64,000 nucleotides of DNA from Bryobacteraceae bacterium (GTDB lineage Bacteria > Acidobacteriota > Terriglobia > Bryobacterales > Bryobacteraceae): NCBI GenBank assembly GCA_025055455.1, contig JANWXD010000018.1, positions 1-64,000 on the forward strand, written 5' to 3'. A program made the position numbers and the translations under genes. Below are positions 3,676 to 12,013 of the stretch, in pieces. Below the pieces are notes generated by a model. That model searched no databases. It saw nothing but the letters and a program-made list of their open reading frames with translations, and had not been told where the DNA came from. Numbering within the stretch: the stretch's first letter is position 1; each line of letters opens with the position of its first letter.

Positions 3676-5427
3676 CTAACGGATTCTCGGCGGCTCGGGG
3701 CGTTGGTACACCAGCCGGCCGCCGAGATACGTCCGCTCCACCTGAATCTCGGGGATCTCGTCCACGGCACAGGTCAGAATGTCCCGGTCCAGGATGATGA
3801 AATCGGCGAGTTTGCCCGCTTCGAGCGAACCTTTTTGTTTCTCTTGGAACGTCAGGTAGGCGTTGTTGATGGTGTAGAGGCGGATCGCCTGTTCGCGGCT
3901 GAGGGCTTGCTCCGGCCCGAGCGGCTGGTCCAGCCAGCGGGGGCGGCGCGTGAGCACGATCCAAATGCCCAGGAACGGATTGTACGGATTGATGGAACGG
4001 CGGCTGCCGATTTTCTGCATGTGGTCGGAGCCGCCGCCGACGATCACGCCTTCCTCGAACAGCGTTTTGTAGGGGTGGAAGTAGCGCAGCCTCTCCTGGC
4101 CGAAATGGCGCAGCAGCGTGCGGCCGTCCAGATACAGCCATGGGGGTTGCATGTTGGCCACCACGCCGAGGCGTTTCATCGTAGCGATAGCTTCGCGGGT
4201 CATGAAGCTGGCGTGACTCATGTTGGGCCGCCGGTCGCGAACCGGGAAGTCATTTTTGTCGATCCGCTCATAGGCCTCGAGGAGCGTTTCTACGGCGCCG
4301 TCGCCTTGTGCGTGGGCGGTGAACTGGAAGCCGTGGCGCAGCGCCTCGCGCGCGATGCGGTAGAGTTTGTCCGGCTCGATGAAGCGCATCCCGCGATAGG
4401 TCGGGTCTTCAATCCCATAGAGCGGGCTGATGCCCCACGGCTGGAGCATGAAGGCGCTGCCCGTGAGCATGCCCCCGTCGAGGAAGGTCTTCACGCCCCG
4501 CAGCCAGAGCAGATTATCGTATCGGTGCAGCGGGTCTCGGGCGGCTTTCCGCAGCCGTGCTTCGATCTGTTCCAGAGGCGCCTGGGCGTCTACGTGCAGC
4601 GTGAGGAACGTGCGGCAGCTCAGTTCGCCGCGCTCCTTGAGCAGGCGGTACAGTTCCACCTCGTCGTCTTGGGTGTTGGCGTCCACGATGCTGGTGAGTC
4701 CCACCGAATTGTAGTCGGCCAACAACTCCTTCAAGCGACGCAGGCGATCCTCTCGCGTCGCCTTCGGTTCGCTCGGCGCAACCCGAAGGAACCGGCCGCA
4801 GTTTCGCAGAATTCCGGTCGGCTCTCCCGTGGCGTCGCGCTCCACGCGGCAGGGCTGGCCGTCGGTGACTTTGAAGTTGCGGTCAATGCCGCTCCGCTCG
4901 AGCGCCAGCGAGTTGAGCGAGGCATCCGGACCGGTGCGAAACACCACGGGATGGTGCGGGGCGGCCTCGTCCAGCTCTCTTCGGGTGGGATAGCGCTGCT
5001 CTTTGAGGCGCGTGATGAAGACCTGCGAAACGACGATCCACTGCCCAGGCGGAAGCGCCGCGGCCCGCGCACGCACGTAGGCGAGCACGTCCTGGATGGA
5101 CTCCATGTCGGGCACGGGATGGTCGAACTCGAACATCGAAGCCGCGGGCGCGTGGACATGAGAGTCGATCAGGCCGGGCAGAACGGTCTTGCCCTGGAGG
5201 TCCAGCTTCTCGGTCTTCGGCCCTGCGAGTTTCAAGATCTCGGCGTCCGACCCGGTGGCCAGGATGCGGCCGTCCCGCACGGCCAGGGCTCGAGCGATGC
5301 GAAACCGCGGGTCGACGGTTACGATCTTGCCGTGGTAAACAATGAGATCGGCCGCACCTTGCGCTGCCCAGACAGGGTTGCAAGCAGCCAGCAGTGCGCT
5401 CGCGAGCATGAGGCAGCGCGACATCAT
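3676..5427 (-). CDS. Exported amidohydrolase, YtcJ-like (amidohydrolase family 3)
   Basis: 583 residues with a cleavable signal peptide (LASALLAACNPVWA, cut after AQ). The body matches the YtcJ-like metal-dependent amidohydrolases: ADLIVYHGKIVTVDP, PGLIDSHVH with the first metal-binding His pair, a downstream AHAQGDG, and GSDHMQKIG followed by INPYNPF near the C-terminus. Family members hydrolyse N-formyl or amide bonds of unknown secreted substrates. Two adjacent ATG codons (5427, 5424) follow AGGAGG, at five and eight bases, so either can start. It diverges from the alpha/beta hydrolase gene, and a dyad symmetric sequence lies in the shared 100-base intergenic region, suggesting coordinated control. 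Confidence 0.9.
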   Translation of the reverse strand: MMSRCLMLASALLAACNPVWAAQGAADLIVYHGKIVTVDPRFRIARALAVRDGRILATGSDAEILKLAGPKTEKLDLQGKTVLPGLIDSHVHAPAASMFEFDHPVPDMESIQDVLAYVRARAAALPPGQWIVVSQVFITRLKEQRYPTRRELDEAAPHHPVVFRTGPDASLNSLALERSGIDRNFKVTDGQPCRVERDATGEPTGILRNCGRFLRVAPSEPKATREDRLRRLKELLADYNSVGLTSIVDANTQDDEVELYRLLKERGELSCRTFLTLHVDAQAPLEQIEARLRKAARDPLHRYDNLLWLRGVKTFLDGGMLTGSAFMLQPWGISPLYGIEDPTYRGMRFIEPDKLYRIAREALRHGFQFTAHAQGDGAVETLLEAYERIDKNDFPVRDRRPNMSHASFMTREAIATMKRLGVVANMQPPWLYLDGRTLLRHFGQERLRYFHPYKTLFEEGVIVGGGSDHMQKIGSRRSINPYNPFLGIWIVLTRRPRWLDQPLGPEQALSREQAIRLYTINNAYLTFQEKQKGSLEAGKLADFIILDRDILTCAVDEIPEIQVERTYLGGRLVYQRPEPPRIR

Positions 5428-5454
5428 TCCGTCCTCCTGTCGGGAATTCTATCG

Positions 5455-5478
5455 AAACCTGGGAACCGAACCAGGTTT
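5455..5478. promoter_or_regulatory. Dyad AAACCTGG-N8-CCAGGTTT in divergent promoter region
   Basis: Perfect 8-base inverted repeat (5455-5462 and 5471-5478) separated by eight bases, centred between the amidohydrolase start (5427) and the alpha/beta hydrolase start (5528). Symmetry, spacing and position fit a binding site for a dimeric transcription factor controlling both genes; an RNA hairpin is the alternative. Confidence 0.5.
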
Positions 5479-5527
5479 GCCAAGGACCCGGCGGGCCGCG
5501 CGGACTATGATGCATCAGGGAGGAGCT

Positions 5528-7642
5528 ATGCGATTAGGACTGGCCGTCTTCTCGCTGGCGACGTTGTGTGCGCTCACCGCGGCGGCGCAGACTGCCGAGC
5601 GACTCGATTTTCTGGCAGGACACCCGGATTTCCGGGAGGTCAGCAGGATGCTGCCGGATTACTGCCGGCGGATCGCCTCCGAACATCTGGCGGCGCGGCG
5701 CCGCCAGATCGCACGCCTGACCGGACCGGCGGACATCGAGGCCCGGCGCCGCTATGTACGCGAGAAGATGATGCGCGCTCTCGGCGGTTTCCCCGAACGC
5801 ACGCCGCTGAACGCGCGGGTCACGGGCGTCCTCGAGCGGAACGATTACCGCATCGAAAAGATCGTTTTCGAAAGCCAGCCGGGCTTTTTCGTCACGGCGA
5901 ACTTGTATGTGCCGAAAACCGGGAAGCCGCCGTATCCCGCCATTCTTTTTCCCTTAGGGCATGAGCCGGGGGGTAAGTCGAATCCGACTTGGCAACAGGC
6001 GCTGGGCACCTTCGCCAAGAAGGGCTTTGTGGCCCTGGCCTGGGATCCACTGGGTCAGGGCGAGCGCGTTCAACTCTACGACCCGGATCTCGGCGAATCC
6101 AAGCTGAGAGGCTCCACCATCGAGCACACCATGCTCGGAACCCAATGTCTGCTGGTCGGAGATAATGTGGCGCGCTACATGATCTGGGATGGCCTGCGCG
6201 CCCTGGACTACCTGCTTTCGAGGAAAGAGGTGGATCCCCGGCGCGTGGGCTGCACGGGGAACTCCGGCGGCGGCACGCACACCGCATACCTGGCAGCGCT
6301 AGATGACCGGATCCAGGCGGCCGCGCCGTCTTGCTATCTGACCAATTGGGAGAGGCTGCTCGAAACCATCGGCCCGCAGGACGCCGAACAATGCCTGCTG
6401 CCTTGGCTCGCCAACGGCTTGGACCACGCGGATTTCGTCCACGCTTTCGCGCCGAAGCCTTACTTGCTCCTGGCGGCCATCCGCGACTTTTTCTCGATCG
6501 TGGGCACGCGCGAGACCTTTCATGAGAGCGAGCGCATCTACGCACTGCTCGGCGCGCGGGAGAAACTGGCCCTGGTGGAAGCCGACGACGGGCACGGCTA
6601 CTCGAAGCCCCGCCGCATGGCGGCGTACCGATGGTTCAGCCGGTGGCTGAAGAACGCGGAGGACGAGGAACCCGAACCGCAAATCCTCTTGGCCACGGAA
6701 GAAGAGCTGTATGCGACGCGGACCGGCCAGGTGGCGACTTCCTTGGGAGGCGAGACGGTCTTCACGCTGAACCAAACGCGCGCCGAGCGACTTCGTCGGC
6801 AGGGAGCTCCCCCTGGGGGAGCACAGCTTGCAGCTCTGATCGGGTTCCAGCGGCCAGAGGGAGCTGTGAGAGTCCGGGCATTCGGCGAGATCGAGCGCCC
6901 CGAGCTCCGCATCGAGAAAATCGTTTACGAAAGTGAGCCGGGCATTGCGGTGCCCGGTCTCGTGTTGGTCCCGAAGACGCCGCTCGCACGAAAGCCGGCC
7001 GTGATCTACGTGCATGGCCGGGGCAAAGCCGCGGCCCGCGAGGACATCGAGGCCCTGGCCCGATCCGGCCAGATCGTGCTTTCGATTGACGCGCGCGGCT
7101 TCGGAGAGACCCGCCACACCAGCAATGATTACGGCCCCGACTGGGCGCGCTACTTCGGCGACTACGACTGCGCCATGACCGCTCTGCTCGTCGGCCGGAC
7201 CCTGGTGGGCCTGCGGGCGCTCGACGTGGTGCGCGGCGTAGACGTGCTGGCGCAGCGGCCGGATGTGGATCCAGACCGTCTAGCGGCCCTGGGCGTGGAG
7301 GCCGGGGCTGTGCCCGTGCTGCACGCCGTTGCGCTGGAGGCGCGCATCCGCAAAGTGGCCCTCGAGCGCATGCTAGCTTCCTACGATTCCGTCGTCCGGC
7401 ACCGCATCCACCGAGGCGTCTTCGAACAAGTGATCCCCGGCGTGCTCCAGCATTACGATCTGCCCGAGCTGGCCGCCAGCCTGGCGCCGCGCTCGGTCTG
7501 GGTCGTCGACCCGATCGCACCCGTAGGGAGCGTGCTCCCGCTGGACGAAGCCCGGCAGCTTTACAAACAACCCAACATAAAGCTGCTGCGGCGACGGCCA
7601 GAGCAATCCGCCGCGGAACTCTACGGCGGCTGGATCGAGTGA
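5528..7642 (+). CDS. Exported tandem alpha/beta hydrolase (acetyl-xylan-esterase-like)
   Basis: 704 residues with a signal peptide (GLAVFSLATLCALTAAAQ). Two alpha/beta hydrolase halves are visible. The first carries LFPLGHE (oxyanion region), the nucleophile elbow GNSGGG and a C-terminal DDGHGYS histidine, as in acetyl xylan esterase and dienelactone-hydrolase-like enzymes. The second half repeats the entry strand (IEKIVYESEPG, echoing IEKIVFESQPG) and has YVHGRGK, but where the nucleophile elbow should be it reads GVEAG, so Ser is Glu and this half is probably not catalytic. The ATG at 5528 follows GGGAGGAG closely. The TGA stop sits in the loop of a 13-base hairpin. Confidence 0.88.
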   Translation: MRLGLAVFSLATLCALTAAAQTAERLDFLAGHPDFREVSRMLPDYCRRIASEHLAARRRQIARLTGPADIEARRRYVREKMMRALGGFPERTPLNARVTGVLERNDYRIEKIVFESQPGFFVTANLYVPKTGKPPYPAILFPLGHEPGGKSNPTWQQALGTFAKKGFVALAWDPLGQGERVQLYDPDLGESKLRGSTIEHTMLGTQCLLVGDNVARYMIWDGLRALDYLLSRKEVDPRRVGCTGNSGGGTHTAYLAALDDRIQAAAPSCYLTNWERLLETIGPQDAEQCLLPWLANGLDHADFVHAFAPKPYLLLAAIRDFFSIVGTRETFHESERIYALLGAREKLALVEADDGHGYSKPRRMAAYRWFSRWLKNAEDEEPEPQILLATEEELYATRTGQVATSLGGETVFTLNQTRAERLRRQGAPPGGAQLAALIGFQRPEGAVRVRAFGEIERPELRIEKIVYESEPGIAVPGLVLVPKTPLARKPAVIYVHGRGKAAAREDIEALARSGQIVLSIDARGFGETRHTSNDYGPDWARYFGDYDCAMTALLVGRTLVGLRALDVVRGVDVLAQRPDVDPDRLAALGVEAGAVPVLHAVALEARIRKVALERMLASYDSVVRHRIHRGVFEQVIPGVLQHYDLPELAASLAPRSVWVVDPIAPVGSVLPLDEARQLYKQPNIKLLRRRPEQSAAELYGGWIE

Positions 7643-7657
7643 ACCTCGATCCAGCCG
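7627..7657 (+). terminator. 13-base perfect hairpin with the stop codon in its loop
   Basis: Arms CGGCTGGATCGAG (7627-7639) and CTCGATCCAGCCG (7645-7657) pair perfectly around a five-base loop TGAAC that contains the TGA stop of the hydrolase gene. There is no U-run. The next recognisable sequence, starting at 7658, is the sulfatase relic. Confidence 0.6.
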
Positions 7658-8257
7658 GATCACGGTGAGGAATTCCGGGAACGCAGCTGGACCGTGCACG
7701 GCCCTCGCTCTGTCCGGAACGCACGCACGTGGCCTCGCTGATGTGGCATCCCGAGCTGCTGCCGGCCCGTGGGTTACCGAGCCGGTCCCAGTGGAGGACT
7801 CGGTTCCACCCGCGCTCGAACTCCTCGGGGTGCGACCCACAAACTTGGGACAGGTCCAGAACCTCGTCCCGCCGATGCACGGCGCGAGGATGGAGTGAAA
7901 GACTCCCCTCATGGCGTCGCGCTTCGCGCATCCGAACGCGAAGTCGTCCGCTTTCCTGTCGGAGTACCGCACCGACACAGTGGCCTTGATCACCGGCGAG
8001 TGGAAACTGATTTGGCGCGAACAAGCCGACCAAGCCGGCCTGCCGAAGGTCGACCTATAGACCGTCGCACGGACCGGAAGGAAACGCGCAACGTGGCGGC
8101 GTAAGACCCAAACGAGGTGCGGCGCCTGAAAGAGGACCTGGATCGTTGGATCGAGGCCAGAAGCAGGTGGGCGAACGGGTGGGGCGGGGTGCGCCAGCGC
8201 CTCTCGATCCCCGGCAGGTCGAGCGGCTGCGCAGTTTGGGTTATATCGGGAAGGAGA
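7658..8257 (+). pseudogene. Decayed C-terminal part of a sulfatase
   Basis: No frame is intact, but stitched together three frames read as the C-terminal third of an arylsulfatase-type enzyme. In order: DHGEEFRE (the sulfatase DHGE metal region) at 7658, MWHPELLPARG near 7740, VTEPVPVEDSVPPALELLG near 7773, then after a TGA SEYRTDTVALITGEWKLIW near 7960, then in another frame RKETRNVAA, a TAA, DPNEVRRLKEDLDRWIEA near 8108, and finally LDPRQVERLRSLGYIGKE ending near 8257. At least four frame changes and three in-frame stops are needed. The N-terminal two thirds with the catalytic Cys/Ser motif are absent; the relic begins immediately after the hairpin of the hydrolase gene. Confidence 0.85.
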
Positions 8258-9328
8258 ATGCTGTGCCGGGTCTGCGGAAAAGGCCGGACACTCGTAAGCG
8301 CGGCGCCGGGAGTCTGCCTGAATTGCATCCGCGTGCGGCCCGGGGAGGCGCTGGCAGTCGCGGAGCAGGCTCATGCCGCTACGCGCCGGGCGTTCGCCTT
8401 GCCGGAGATGCCGCCGCAGACCGCCGGCGGAAGGCTCTGTCCCCTGTGCAGCCGTGAGTGCGTGATCGGGGAGGGCCAGCGCGGCTACTGCGGGCTGCGC
8501 ACCGTCCGCAACGGCCGGCTGGTGAATCTCGCGGGGACGCCCGCCCGCGGGCTGCTCACCTGGTACCGTGACCCGCTGCCCACGAACTGCGTGGCGGACT
8601 GGGTTTGCCGCGGCAGCCGGATGCAGGGTTTCCACAACCTCGCCGTCTTCTACGAGAGTTGCACACTCAACTGCCTTTTCTGTCAGAACTGGCATTTCCG
8701 GGAAACGCGCGTCACAGCTTCCGGGATCTCGGCTGAGGAACTCGCCTCCGCCGCCAACGCACGGACCTTTTGTGTTTGCTTCTTCGGCGGCGATCCGGCC
8801 TCGCAGATGCCGCACGCGCTGGCCGCCGGACGCCTTTTGGCGAGACGCGGCGTGACGGTGTGCTGGGAGACAGCCGGAATGTCGCGTGCGAGGCTGCTGG
8901 ACTACGCGGTCGAGCTCTCTTTGCGCAGCGGCGGATGCGTCAAGTTCGATCTGAAGGCATATGACGACACACTACACCGCGCGCTCACCGGGGGCTCCAA
9001 TGCGCCGACGCTGGAGAATTTCGCTCGAGTTGCGCGGCGGATCCCGGAGCGGCCGGATCCACCGCTGCTCGTGGCCAGCACGCTCTTGGTGCCCGGTTAC
9101 GTGGACGCCGCCGAGGTCGGCCGCATCGCACGCTTCATTGCGTCGCTCGATCCGAGTATTCCCTACGCGCTGCTCGGCTTCGCGCCGCACTTTGCCATGG
9201 GCGACCTCCTGCGCACTTCGCTTTCTCATGCCGAGGAGGCGGAAGCCGCGGCGCGGGCAGCAGGGCTCACCCGCGTCCGTATCGGGAACCGCCACTTGCT
9301 CGGGGCGGATTACCCGTCAGTGGGGTAG
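8258..9328 (+). CDS. Radical SAM protein, AmmeMemoRadiSam/PFL-activase-like
   Basis: About 356 residues. Two N-terminal cysteine-rich knuckles (CRVCGK with CLNC, then CPLCSREC with YCGLR) precede a radical SAM core with the CX3CX2C motif CTLNCLFC, binding the 4Fe-4S cluster that cleaves S-adenosylmethionine. FFGGDPASQMP is the GGE-like strand and KFDLKAYDD a later barrel strand. This architecture resembles AmrS-type and pyruvate-formate-lyase-activase-like proteins; the substrate is unknown and no MEMO or AMMECR1 gene is adjacent. The ATG at 8258 is only one base after AAGGAG, an awkward spacing; upstream frame belongs to the sulfatase relic, so the relic may have supplied its ribosome site. 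Confidence 0.87.
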   Translation: MLCRVCGKGRTLVSAAPGVCLNCIRVRPGEALAVAEQAHAATRRAFALPEMPPQTAGGRLCPLCSRECVIGEGQRGYCGLRTVRNGRLVNLAGTPARGLLTWYRDPLPTNCVADWVCRGSRMQGFHNLAVFYESCTLNCLFCQNWHFRETRVTASGISAEELASAANARTFCVCFFGGDPASQMPHALAAGRLLARRGVTVCWETAGMSRARLLDYAVELSLRSGGCVKFDLKAYDDTLHRALTGGSNAPTLENFARVARRIPERPDPPLLVASTLLVPGYVDAAEVGRIARFIASLDPSIPYALLGFAPHFAMGDLLRTSLSHAEEAEAAARAAGLTRVRIGNRHLLGADYPSVG

Positions 9329-9360
9329 AGAATGTCTGCTGCTTGCTTTAGGCAGCTTCA

Positions 9361-9387
9361 GCCCGCCGGTACGTTTTCCCGACGGGC
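9361..9387. terminator. Hairpin between convergent radical SAM gene and receptor remnant
   Basis: GCCCG (9361-9365) pairs with CGGGC (9383-9387), and after one mismatch CGG pairs with CCG around a loop containing TTTT. It lies 33 bases after the radical SAM stop. Confidence 0.45.
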
Positions 9388-9399
9388 CGCAAACTCACG

Positions 9400-9693
9400 T
9401 CAAAACTCTACTCGCACGTTGAACTGGATCAGCCGGCTCAGGCCGTTCTGAGCGGTCACGCGACCGAAATTACCGCTGGTCGGATCGGTGTTTGGGCCCT
9501 CGAAATTGGTGTGGTTGGTGGCGTTGAGCATGTCGACGTCGAAACTGGCCCTCCAGCGCTCGGTGATCCGGAAGACCCGCTTGATTTTGACGTCCCAGTT
9601 GCGGATTCCGTCCTGGCGCAGCGCGTCCAGCCGCGTCGGGAACACGCGGGCGCCGATTCCAGGACTTGTCAAGAGACGAGCCTCGCGAGGCAA
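9400..9693 (-). pseudogene. C-terminal stub of a TonB-dependent receptor
   Basis: About 95 residues that match only the last strands of an Oar-type TonB-dependent receptor: RVFPTRLDALRQDG, GIRNWDVKIKR, RASFDVDMLNATNHTNF and a terminal strand FNVRVEF ending in Phe, the usual outer-membrane barrel signature. The intact paralogue in this window (59495-62740) has the equivalent GLRNWDLSLLKNF and LFNAFNTTQFNG. Upstream of 9693 the receptor similarity stops and the 97 bases to malQ show nothing recognisable, so the plug and most of the barrel are gone. Not expected to make a functional protein. Confidence 0.75.
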
Positions 9694-9790
9694 AGGCTTC
9701 CGAGCAGCGCGCCGTCCCCCAGCCGTCTGAGGACCGTGGCCTGTGGATTGCGGCGCCCTTGGATCCGTTCGGAGGCGCGCTGGCCCCCGC

Positions 9791-12013
9791 TCAGGACCAG
9801 TTCCGCCGTCCCGTGCGCTCCAACCAATGCCGCAGCATGGCGGTGACAGCGCGCGCCTCCGGCAAACTGCGTAGTTCTTCGACCGTAAAGCGCATTTTGT
9901 GGCGCCAGTTCGGATACTCGCCCGTGGTGCCTGGCACGTTCTGTTGTTCCGTTTCTTTGGTCAAGTCCTCCTGGTTGACGAGCATGAGCATCGAGGGCGT
10001 AGTGGCCAGAAACCCGACGATCGCGTTGTGCAGCTCTCCGGTCAGTTCGGCGATGGCGGCAGCGTCGTGCGGAACGAAGTCCGGCAGCAGCCCGAGGCGG
10101 AACAGCAAGTCGAGAAGCCTTTGCTTGTCGAGACAGCGGCCACGAAGTGCCTCGCGATACTGGGCGTCGGTCAGCCGGCCCGCGGCCCGCCGCGCTTCAA
10201 TATCCCGGCCGAGCCAAAAGCCCGCCAGGGTCGGCAAGTCATGCGTCGTGGCGGCCACCAGCGCCTGTCGAGGATACTGCTCCGGCGGGCGAAACTCCCC
10301 GTCACTGTTTTTTTCGAACCACAGTACTCGATAGCCGAGGATGCCGAAGCGTTCCATCTCCGTGCGGATCCACGGCTCGACGGTTCCCAGATCCTCGCCG
10401 ATAATCACCACGCGGTTTCGGACGCTCTCCAAGGCGAGGATGCGGAGCAAGTCCTCGTGGAAGTCGCGTACATAGGCGCCTCGGGCCGCCTCCATGCCAT
10501 CGGGGATCCAAAACAGCCGGAAGAAGCGCATGACATGATCCACCCGTAGGGCGCCTCCGTGAGCGCAATTGCGGCGGATGGATTCGACAAACAGCCGGTA
10601 AGCCGTGCGGCGGTGGTGGCGCGCCTGGGGCGGCGGAAAGCCCCAGTCCTGTCCGCCGGGCGAGAAGTCATCCGGCGGCGCGCCCACACGGCAACCTTCG
10701 GCGAAAAACGGCCGGCGAGCCCACACATCGGCGCCACAGCGGTCGGTGGCCAAGGCGAGGTCATGGTACAGACCGATGCGCATGCCCTTGTGCCGCGCGT
10801 ACTGCTGGGCCGCGGCCAGTTGCTGCTCGAGCTGCCATTGCACGTACTTGTGGAAGAGAACGTCGCGCCGCCGCTCGCGCGCGAACGTGCGCACGGCATC
10901 CGAGTCGGGATGGCGGTACGCTTCGGGCCACTCCGGCCAGACCCAGATCCCGGGGTTGTGCGCGCGTATCCATTCGTCCAGGGCGCAGTAAACGGCAAAC
11001 TGCTCCAACAACTCGCCCTGCTGAGCGCAATAGTGCTCGAAAGCTTCGTGGCGCGAGGGCGTGGCGTCTTCCAGGAAGGTTTCGTAGGCGATTTCGAGAA
11101 ACCGGCGTTTGAGCGCCCAGACTCGTTCGTATTCCACCAACGGCGCGGCGCGCAGGTTACGGATTTCGTCTTGTACTTCCGGGCTGGCGAACAGCGACCG
11201 CGCCCGGCGCGAGCGCTGGAACTCTTCGATGCGCTCCACGTCGACGTAAAGGGGGTTGCGAAAAAAGACCGAGTTCGGCAGATAGGGACTGGTGTTGAAC
11301 GGGGTGCGGTTGTGGATGGCGTGCAAGGGGTTCAGTGCGACAAAGGACACGCCGGCGTCGTCCGCCGCCCAGTCGAGGAAGCGCTCGAGGTCGGTGAAGT
11401 CGCCGCAGCCCCAGTTGCGGGCCGAGCGCAGGCCAAACAAACTGATGGCGATTCCCGCCATACGGCCCCCGGCGAGCAGCTCCGGCGGGAGCCACGCACG
11501 CTGGGGGCAAACGATCAGCGGGCTCGAGGCCACTGCACCGCCGACTTCCACTTGGATGGAGTGGTAGCCGAGGCGCAGCGGCGGAAGCGGGGTTCGCTTG
11601 CGGCAAAAGAGTTGGCCGCGCAGAAAGGCCGACCCTGATTCCGGGAGCCCGGCGGTCGGCACGACCCAGTGCTCCTGGCCCTCCCCTTCCCAACGAATTG
11701 TGATCGCAGCGTGTTCCGCCTCCTGGGGAACATTGAGGGGCAACTCGCGGGCTGCTTCGTCCAGGACCAGAACGGGAGGAAGCAGCTGCGACCACTCTTG
11801 CCAGAGAGCCCCTTCCACCGCCGCATCGAGGGTCTCACGGCTGGAGCAGTCCACCCCCATGGCTTGCAGGATCGCGCGCAAAACGTCGGGCTCGGCGACG
11901 TGCCGCACGCCCCGCACGTCCCAGTACTCGAGCTGGACTCCGAAGAAAGCAGCGGCGCGGGTGAGGGCTTCTTCCTCCGTCGCCGAGGGAACGAACGTGA
12001 TGTGGAAGGCCAC
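9791..12013 (-). CDS. malQ: 4-alpha-glucanotransferase (amylomaltase)
   Basis: GH77 enzyme that disproportionates maltodextrins during glycogen/maltose metabolism in the cytoplasm. The catalytic set is complete: nucleophile Asp in LRVDHVMRFF, acid/base Glu in IIGEDLGTV and transition-state Asp in TTHDLPTLAG. SARNWGCGDFTDL and LNPLHA mark the first barrel strands. A roughly 200-residue N-terminal extension precedes the barrel, as in longer bacterial MalQ forms, giving 740 residues. The frame runs on upstream through nuoB, so the start is taken as GTG 12013, giving AFHITFVPSATEEE; no Shine-Dalgarno is visible, but TAGAAT lies five bases before it. Diverges from nuoB. Confidence 0.93.
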   Translation of the reverse strand: MAFHITFVPSATEEEALTRAAAFFGVQLEYWDVRGVRHVAEPDVLRAILQAMGVDCSSRETLDAAVEGALWQEWSQLLPPVLVLDEAARELPLNVPQEAEHAAITIRWEGEGQEHWVVPTAGLPESGSAFLRGQLFCRKRTPLPPLRLGYHSIQVEVGGAVASSPLIVCPQRAWLPPELLAGGRMAGIAISLFGLRSARNWGCGDFTDLERFLDWAADDAGVSFVALNPLHAIHNRTPFNTSPYLPNSVFFRNPLYVDVERIEEFQRSRRARSLFASPEVQDEIRNLRAAPLVEYERVWALKRRFLEIAYETFLEDATPSRHEAFEHYCAQQGELLEQFAVYCALDEWIRAHNPGIWVWPEWPEAYRHPDSDAVRTFARERRRDVLFHKYVQWQLEQQLAAAQQYARHKGMRIGLYHDLALATDRCGADVWARRPFFAEGCRVGAPPDDFSPGGQDWGFPPPQARHHRRTAYRLFVESIRRNCAHGGALRVDHVMRFFRLFWIPDGMEAARGAYVRDFHEDLLRILALESVRNRVVIIGEDLGTVEPWIRTEMERFGILGYRVLWFEKNSDGEFRPPEQYPRQALVAATTHDLPTLAGFWLGRDIEARRAAGRLTDAQYREALRGRCLDKQRLLDLLFRLGLLPDFVPHDAAAIAELTGELHNAIVGFLATTPSMLMLVNQEDLTKETEQQNVPGTTGEYPNWRHKMRFTVEELRSLPEARAVTAMLRHWLERTGRRNWS

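Follow-up and report, generated by a model that had tools for sequence, protein, structure and literature searches.

What stood in the 600 bases between an esterase-like hydrolase gene and an intact radical SAM gene, how was it broken, and could its remains now start the gene that follows? These questions arise from a stretch of 64,000 nucleotides (the window) of a Bryobacteraceae bacterium whose assembly is a 3.95 Mb draft in 145 contigs.

Identity and decay of the sulfatase relic

We aligned the window with a frameshift-tolerant sulfatase profile of 265 columns, built from 17 intact homologues (18 loci were tried, one being missed by the extraction pattern). The profile matched the forward strand at 7658–8250 in a single alignment, confirming to the base the start given by a first-pass annotation, which had read sulfatase C-terminal motifs across several frames from 7658. 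The score of 559 half-bits compares with a mean of 37.1 (sd 4.3) and a maximum of 63.6 for 200 dinucleotide shuffles of 7301–8500, and with 60 for the best unrelated place on both strands of the whole 64 kb. The relic corresponds to the last ~205 of ~780 residues and shares with the sulfatase family PF00884 having an SGSH_C-like C-terminus the ordered motifs from DHGEEF to LRSLGYIG. Its left edge is sharp, since 60 profile columns upstream of DHGEEF were on offer and remained unused.

The tblastn check that the annotation had proposed gave, with one intact homologue, five collinear pieces with a joint E of 8.5e-31; an early tblastn with short words and no filtering had returned mostly noise. 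The joined read-through (last ~107 residues) matched intact genes among 150 family genomes with a best E of 3e-30, and non-self rows down to E 3e-15 were 39–54% identical. Identity of the relic to the 17 intact homologues was 39–51%, pairs among these averaging 55.9%, and 25 of the 36 columns invariant in them were preserved, 11 being changed. Pfam found no sulfatase in single frames of the relic or in the joined read-through, where it gave only a sub-threshold Fucose_iso_C match (E 0.22); it took the profile alignment and the family-genome search to recognise the relic. Solved sulfatases matched weakly (best E 0.0024), the solved relatives bearing the names sulfatase and N-acetylgalactosamine-6-sulfatase. 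Among the papers listed by a literature search we recognised none as describing this remnant.

The claimed frame changes and stops are also seen. The profile alignment places four frame changes (modelled as 2-base steps) near 7703, 7771, 8058 and 8156, and two in-frame stops, TGA at 7896 and TAA at 8102; six-frame translation of 7600–8300 brings up the pieces that the annotation had named, and in it the sulfatase's own stop codon is gone and the relic frame runs open into the next gene. A functional sulfatase of PF00884 requires a catalytic N-terminal region with the formylglycine motif. The relic differs from the family in having neither this region, as the alignment begins at DHGEEF, nor a single open reading frame from which it could be translated as one protein. 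In agreement with the annotation, tblastn found no match to the N-terminal catalytic part anywhere in the window. No sulfatase can be made from the relic: it lacks the ~578 N-terminal residues, the catalytic part among them, and its remainder is interrupted by four frame changes and two stops. Nor does its own genome have another full-length copy; the nearest match there is a 37% paralogue on C58, and the other sulfatase matches are shorter or weaker.

Significant homology to an intact family, disabling lesions and no intact copy in its own genome make 7658–8250 a unitary pseudogene, the defunct C-terminal end of a particular sulfatase, and we hold this reading firmly. It resembles other unitary bacterial pseudogenes in the loss of the catalytic part, the frame changes and stops, the intact homologues in relatives and the absence of a functional copy in the genome. 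Nothing essential differs, the sole unusual detail being abutment on a living gene with a shortened 5′ end; the gene decay is ordinary, and the junction instructive.

Intact homologues and their neighbours

A search with the full intact protein found what the annotation had suggested looking for in related genomes: 18 long copies of the full-length sulfatase, in 16 of the 150 family genomes. With an additional C-terminal fragment in G061, cut by the contig start, there are 19 copies in all. The intact sulfatase has ~780 amino acids; both proteins scanned contain Sulfatase (PF00884) and SGSH_C, and one contains NPCBM. In all 17 of the 19 copies with enough 5′ flank, a TonB-type receptor gene lies upstream on the same strand, directly adjacent to the sulfatase in 16 and separated from it by another sulfatase in one. 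The receptor–sulfatase cluster is likely a sulfated-glycan uptake cluster.

Receptor and sulfatase are at times accompanied by GH20, amidohydrolase or esterase-like genes (loci L146–L155 and L178–L185). Within the fetched flanks, GH20 genes were found near 5 of the 19 copies, an amidohydrolase near 2 and a hydrolase near 2. Amidohydrolase and hydrolase are also the relic's neighbours in the window, suggesting that the relic is native to its present neighbourhood. The window's amidohydrolase gene (3676–5427, reverse strand; Amidohydro_3, E 8e-87) has a 64% identical counterpart near the intact sulfatase in G008 and G103. The esterase-like hydrolase gene (5342–7642, forward strand; AXE1, E 2e-20), whose true start is uncertain and whose 3′ end is full length, has a 62% identical orthologue in G061 that shares its contig with an intact sulfatase C-terminus.

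The left break

The hydrolase stop codon occupies 7640–7642 and sulfatase homology begins at 7658, placing the break at 7657/7658. A perfect hairpin with a 13-bp stem and a 5-nt loop (7627–7657, no strand assigned) spans this stop codon and ends one base before the relic, its left arm being the end of the hydrolase gene and its right arm lying between the stop and the relic. It is the longest perfect hairpin of the window and one of two with arms of at least 10 in the 64 kb. Either a trace of the rearrangement or a terminator that lacks a T run may be what we see. That it is a working hydrolase terminator and no such trace seems doubtful. Its position across the gene's stop codon and its strong folding (z −4.6) speak for a terminator. 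Against one, the missing T run kept it from being scored as such; a hairpin arm of at least 7 within 60 bases of the stop is absent from all 13 hydrolase orthologues examined (20 loci were fetched, of which one was the window itself and six were missed by the search pattern); and a perfect stem of at least 10 occurs at none of the 22 other open reading frame ends examined in the window. Between 7500 and 9900 we found neither a sigma-70 promoter nor a T-tailed terminator.

The right junction and the start of the radical SAM gene

The sulfatase alignment stops at 8250, four columns before the end of the profile, and therefore the natural C-terminus has been retained, with the stop codon gone. 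The radical SAM gene that follows (8258–9328, forward strand; Radical_SAM, E 9e-12) is intact. Its homology starts at residue 3, the Cys codon at 8264, and thus AAGGAG (8251–8256) and ATG (8258) both fall within a 13-base junction (8251–8263, forward strand). The frame of the gene is open upstream to the TAA at 8102, with in-frame GTG codons at 8117 and 8189. The best NCBIfam match is the AmmeMemoRadiSam system radical SAM enzyme (TIGR04337, E 1e-21); since its 77 bits are under the cut-off of 220, the gene belongs to a related but distinct family, having by sequence an N-terminal CxxC region. Orthologues are present in 8 of 237 family genomes, its own included, and the named records among the closest ones are largely Bryobacteraceae or other Acidobacteriota. 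Against six orthologues dN/dS was 0.08–0.16, with dS near saturation. The seven other orthologue loci have no sulfatase, hydrolase or amidohydrolase match in 1.5 kb flanks.

The gene has probably lost its own 5′ end. Its ATG lies 2 codons before the first conserved Cys, whereas in six of the seven other family orthologues the nearest in-frame ATG lies 14, 14, 15, 14, 18 and 26 codons before it (the seventh has none). Truncation is not proved by this short start, because 6 of 77 assessable wider homologues likewise begin with an ATG no more than 3 codons from the first Cys (80 were fetched; one without the N-terminus and two without the motif were excluded). Upstream of the orthologues in three genomes of one genus (g11; loci L021, L023 and L061) we found a common sequence, CGAGTATAATACCGGCSGATG, a −10-like box situated 8 bases ahead of the ATG, in the pattern of leaderless genes. 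Passages of PMC3160421 and PMC12340547 report such a −10-like box immediately upstream of the ATG in leaderless genes, and the former notes leaderless genes of this pattern in three of three acidobacterial genomes. In the window the radical SAM start has neither a CGAGTATAATACCGGCSGATG-type box, as visual inspection of the 20 bases preceding ATG 8258 showed no TANNNT, nor a Shine–Dalgarno sequence at normal spacing.

The annotation had proposed AAGGAG as the ribosome site of the radical SAM gene, and the pseudogene tail as a reused leader. Shine–Dalgarno sequences lie 5–13 bp upstream of starts according to a passage of PMC3160421; AAGGAG is an unlikely ribosome site because it stands only one base before ATG 8258. 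The broader idea of a reused leader fares better: as the gene seems short of its own start region, the relic tail or the junction may supply the start, and reuse of the tail is possible as judged from the DNA. A start at GTG 8117 would add 47 residues, beginning with ~13 that form the C-terminal helix of the sulfatase itself. The full version, in which the gene, deprived of its native promoter and ~14 initial codons, would have been rescued by the dead sulfatase tail supplying the start, at ATG 8258 or the in-frame GTG 8117, is a tentative proposal that we rate as rather unlikely.

A receptor tail beyond the radical SAM gene

Convergent with the radical SAM gene lies a truncated C-terminal tail of a different TonB-type receptor (9400–9684, reverse strand), which matches positions 769–838 of 838 of PF25183 (E 8e-16). 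The tail is 88% identical to an intact receptor (1297-aa frame) in G166 and free of lesions, so its truncation is probably recent. We rejected it as the relic's former partner: it is on the opposite strand and 30–39% identical to the sulfatase-linked receptors, against 88% to another receptor. No neighbourhood is shared by the loci of that receptor and the window, where only receptor-family matches and one weak open reading frame match were found. In the window's own genome, 114 segments match one TonB-type receptor, corresponding to dozens of such genes in 3.9 Mb. Truncated gene ends so close together point to a rearranged stretch.

Truncation of the sulfatase by an inserting radical SAM gene, the cause first offered, would fit the patchy presence of this gene (8 of 237 family genomes) and the broken genes on both its sides, but is very unlikely: the gene abuts the natural sulfatase C-terminus, the missing end of the sulfatase faces the upstream hydrolase at 7657/7658, and the repeats around the gene are short. 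We likewise rejected a mobile element as the source of the radical SAM gene, as the repeats listed around it (5000–10200) are short and chance-like.

Discussion

We consider it probable that the locus is a sulfatase remnant left by two rearrangement joins and free decay, beside a radical SAM gene kept intact. In one rearrangement, at 7657/7658, where the hairpin now stands, the interior of the sulfatase gene would have become joined to the end of the hydrolase gene upstream of it; another would have fused the natural sulfatase end to a radical SAM gene short of its own first codons. Free decay of the sulfatase part would have followed, with the radical SAM gene remaining intact and presumably started now from junction or relic sequence. 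We favour this history because the profile score is far above the shuffles; intact homologues exist in family genomes and none in its own; the left edge is sharp; the sulfatase stop is missing and the relic frame open into the next gene; radical SAM homology begins only at residue 3, orthologues having longer N-termini; and both upstream genes of the window have relatives among the genes neighbouring the intact sulfatase. Against it count the 6 of 77 short-start homologues, the junctions known from one assembly, and the blindness of Pfam to the relic.

An artefact of assembly or sequencing behind the junctions and frame changes, the true genome having an intact sulfatase or the pieces being misjoined, would suit a draft of 145 contigs with each junction in one assembly only, but is highly improbable in view of six lesions in 600 bases, alterations at 11 of 36 otherwise invariant columns, an adjoining radical SAM gene open throughout, codon-position GC alike in relic and neighbours, and a missing N-terminal part found nowhere else in the genome.

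With the sulfatase remnant and its two joins as the preferred history, breakpoints within 2 kb are placed to between a few bases and a few tens of bases, and the case documents a gene remnant that abuts, and possibly starts, a living gene. In this bacterial family the sulfatase is tightly linked to a TonB-type receptor; here only its remains persist.
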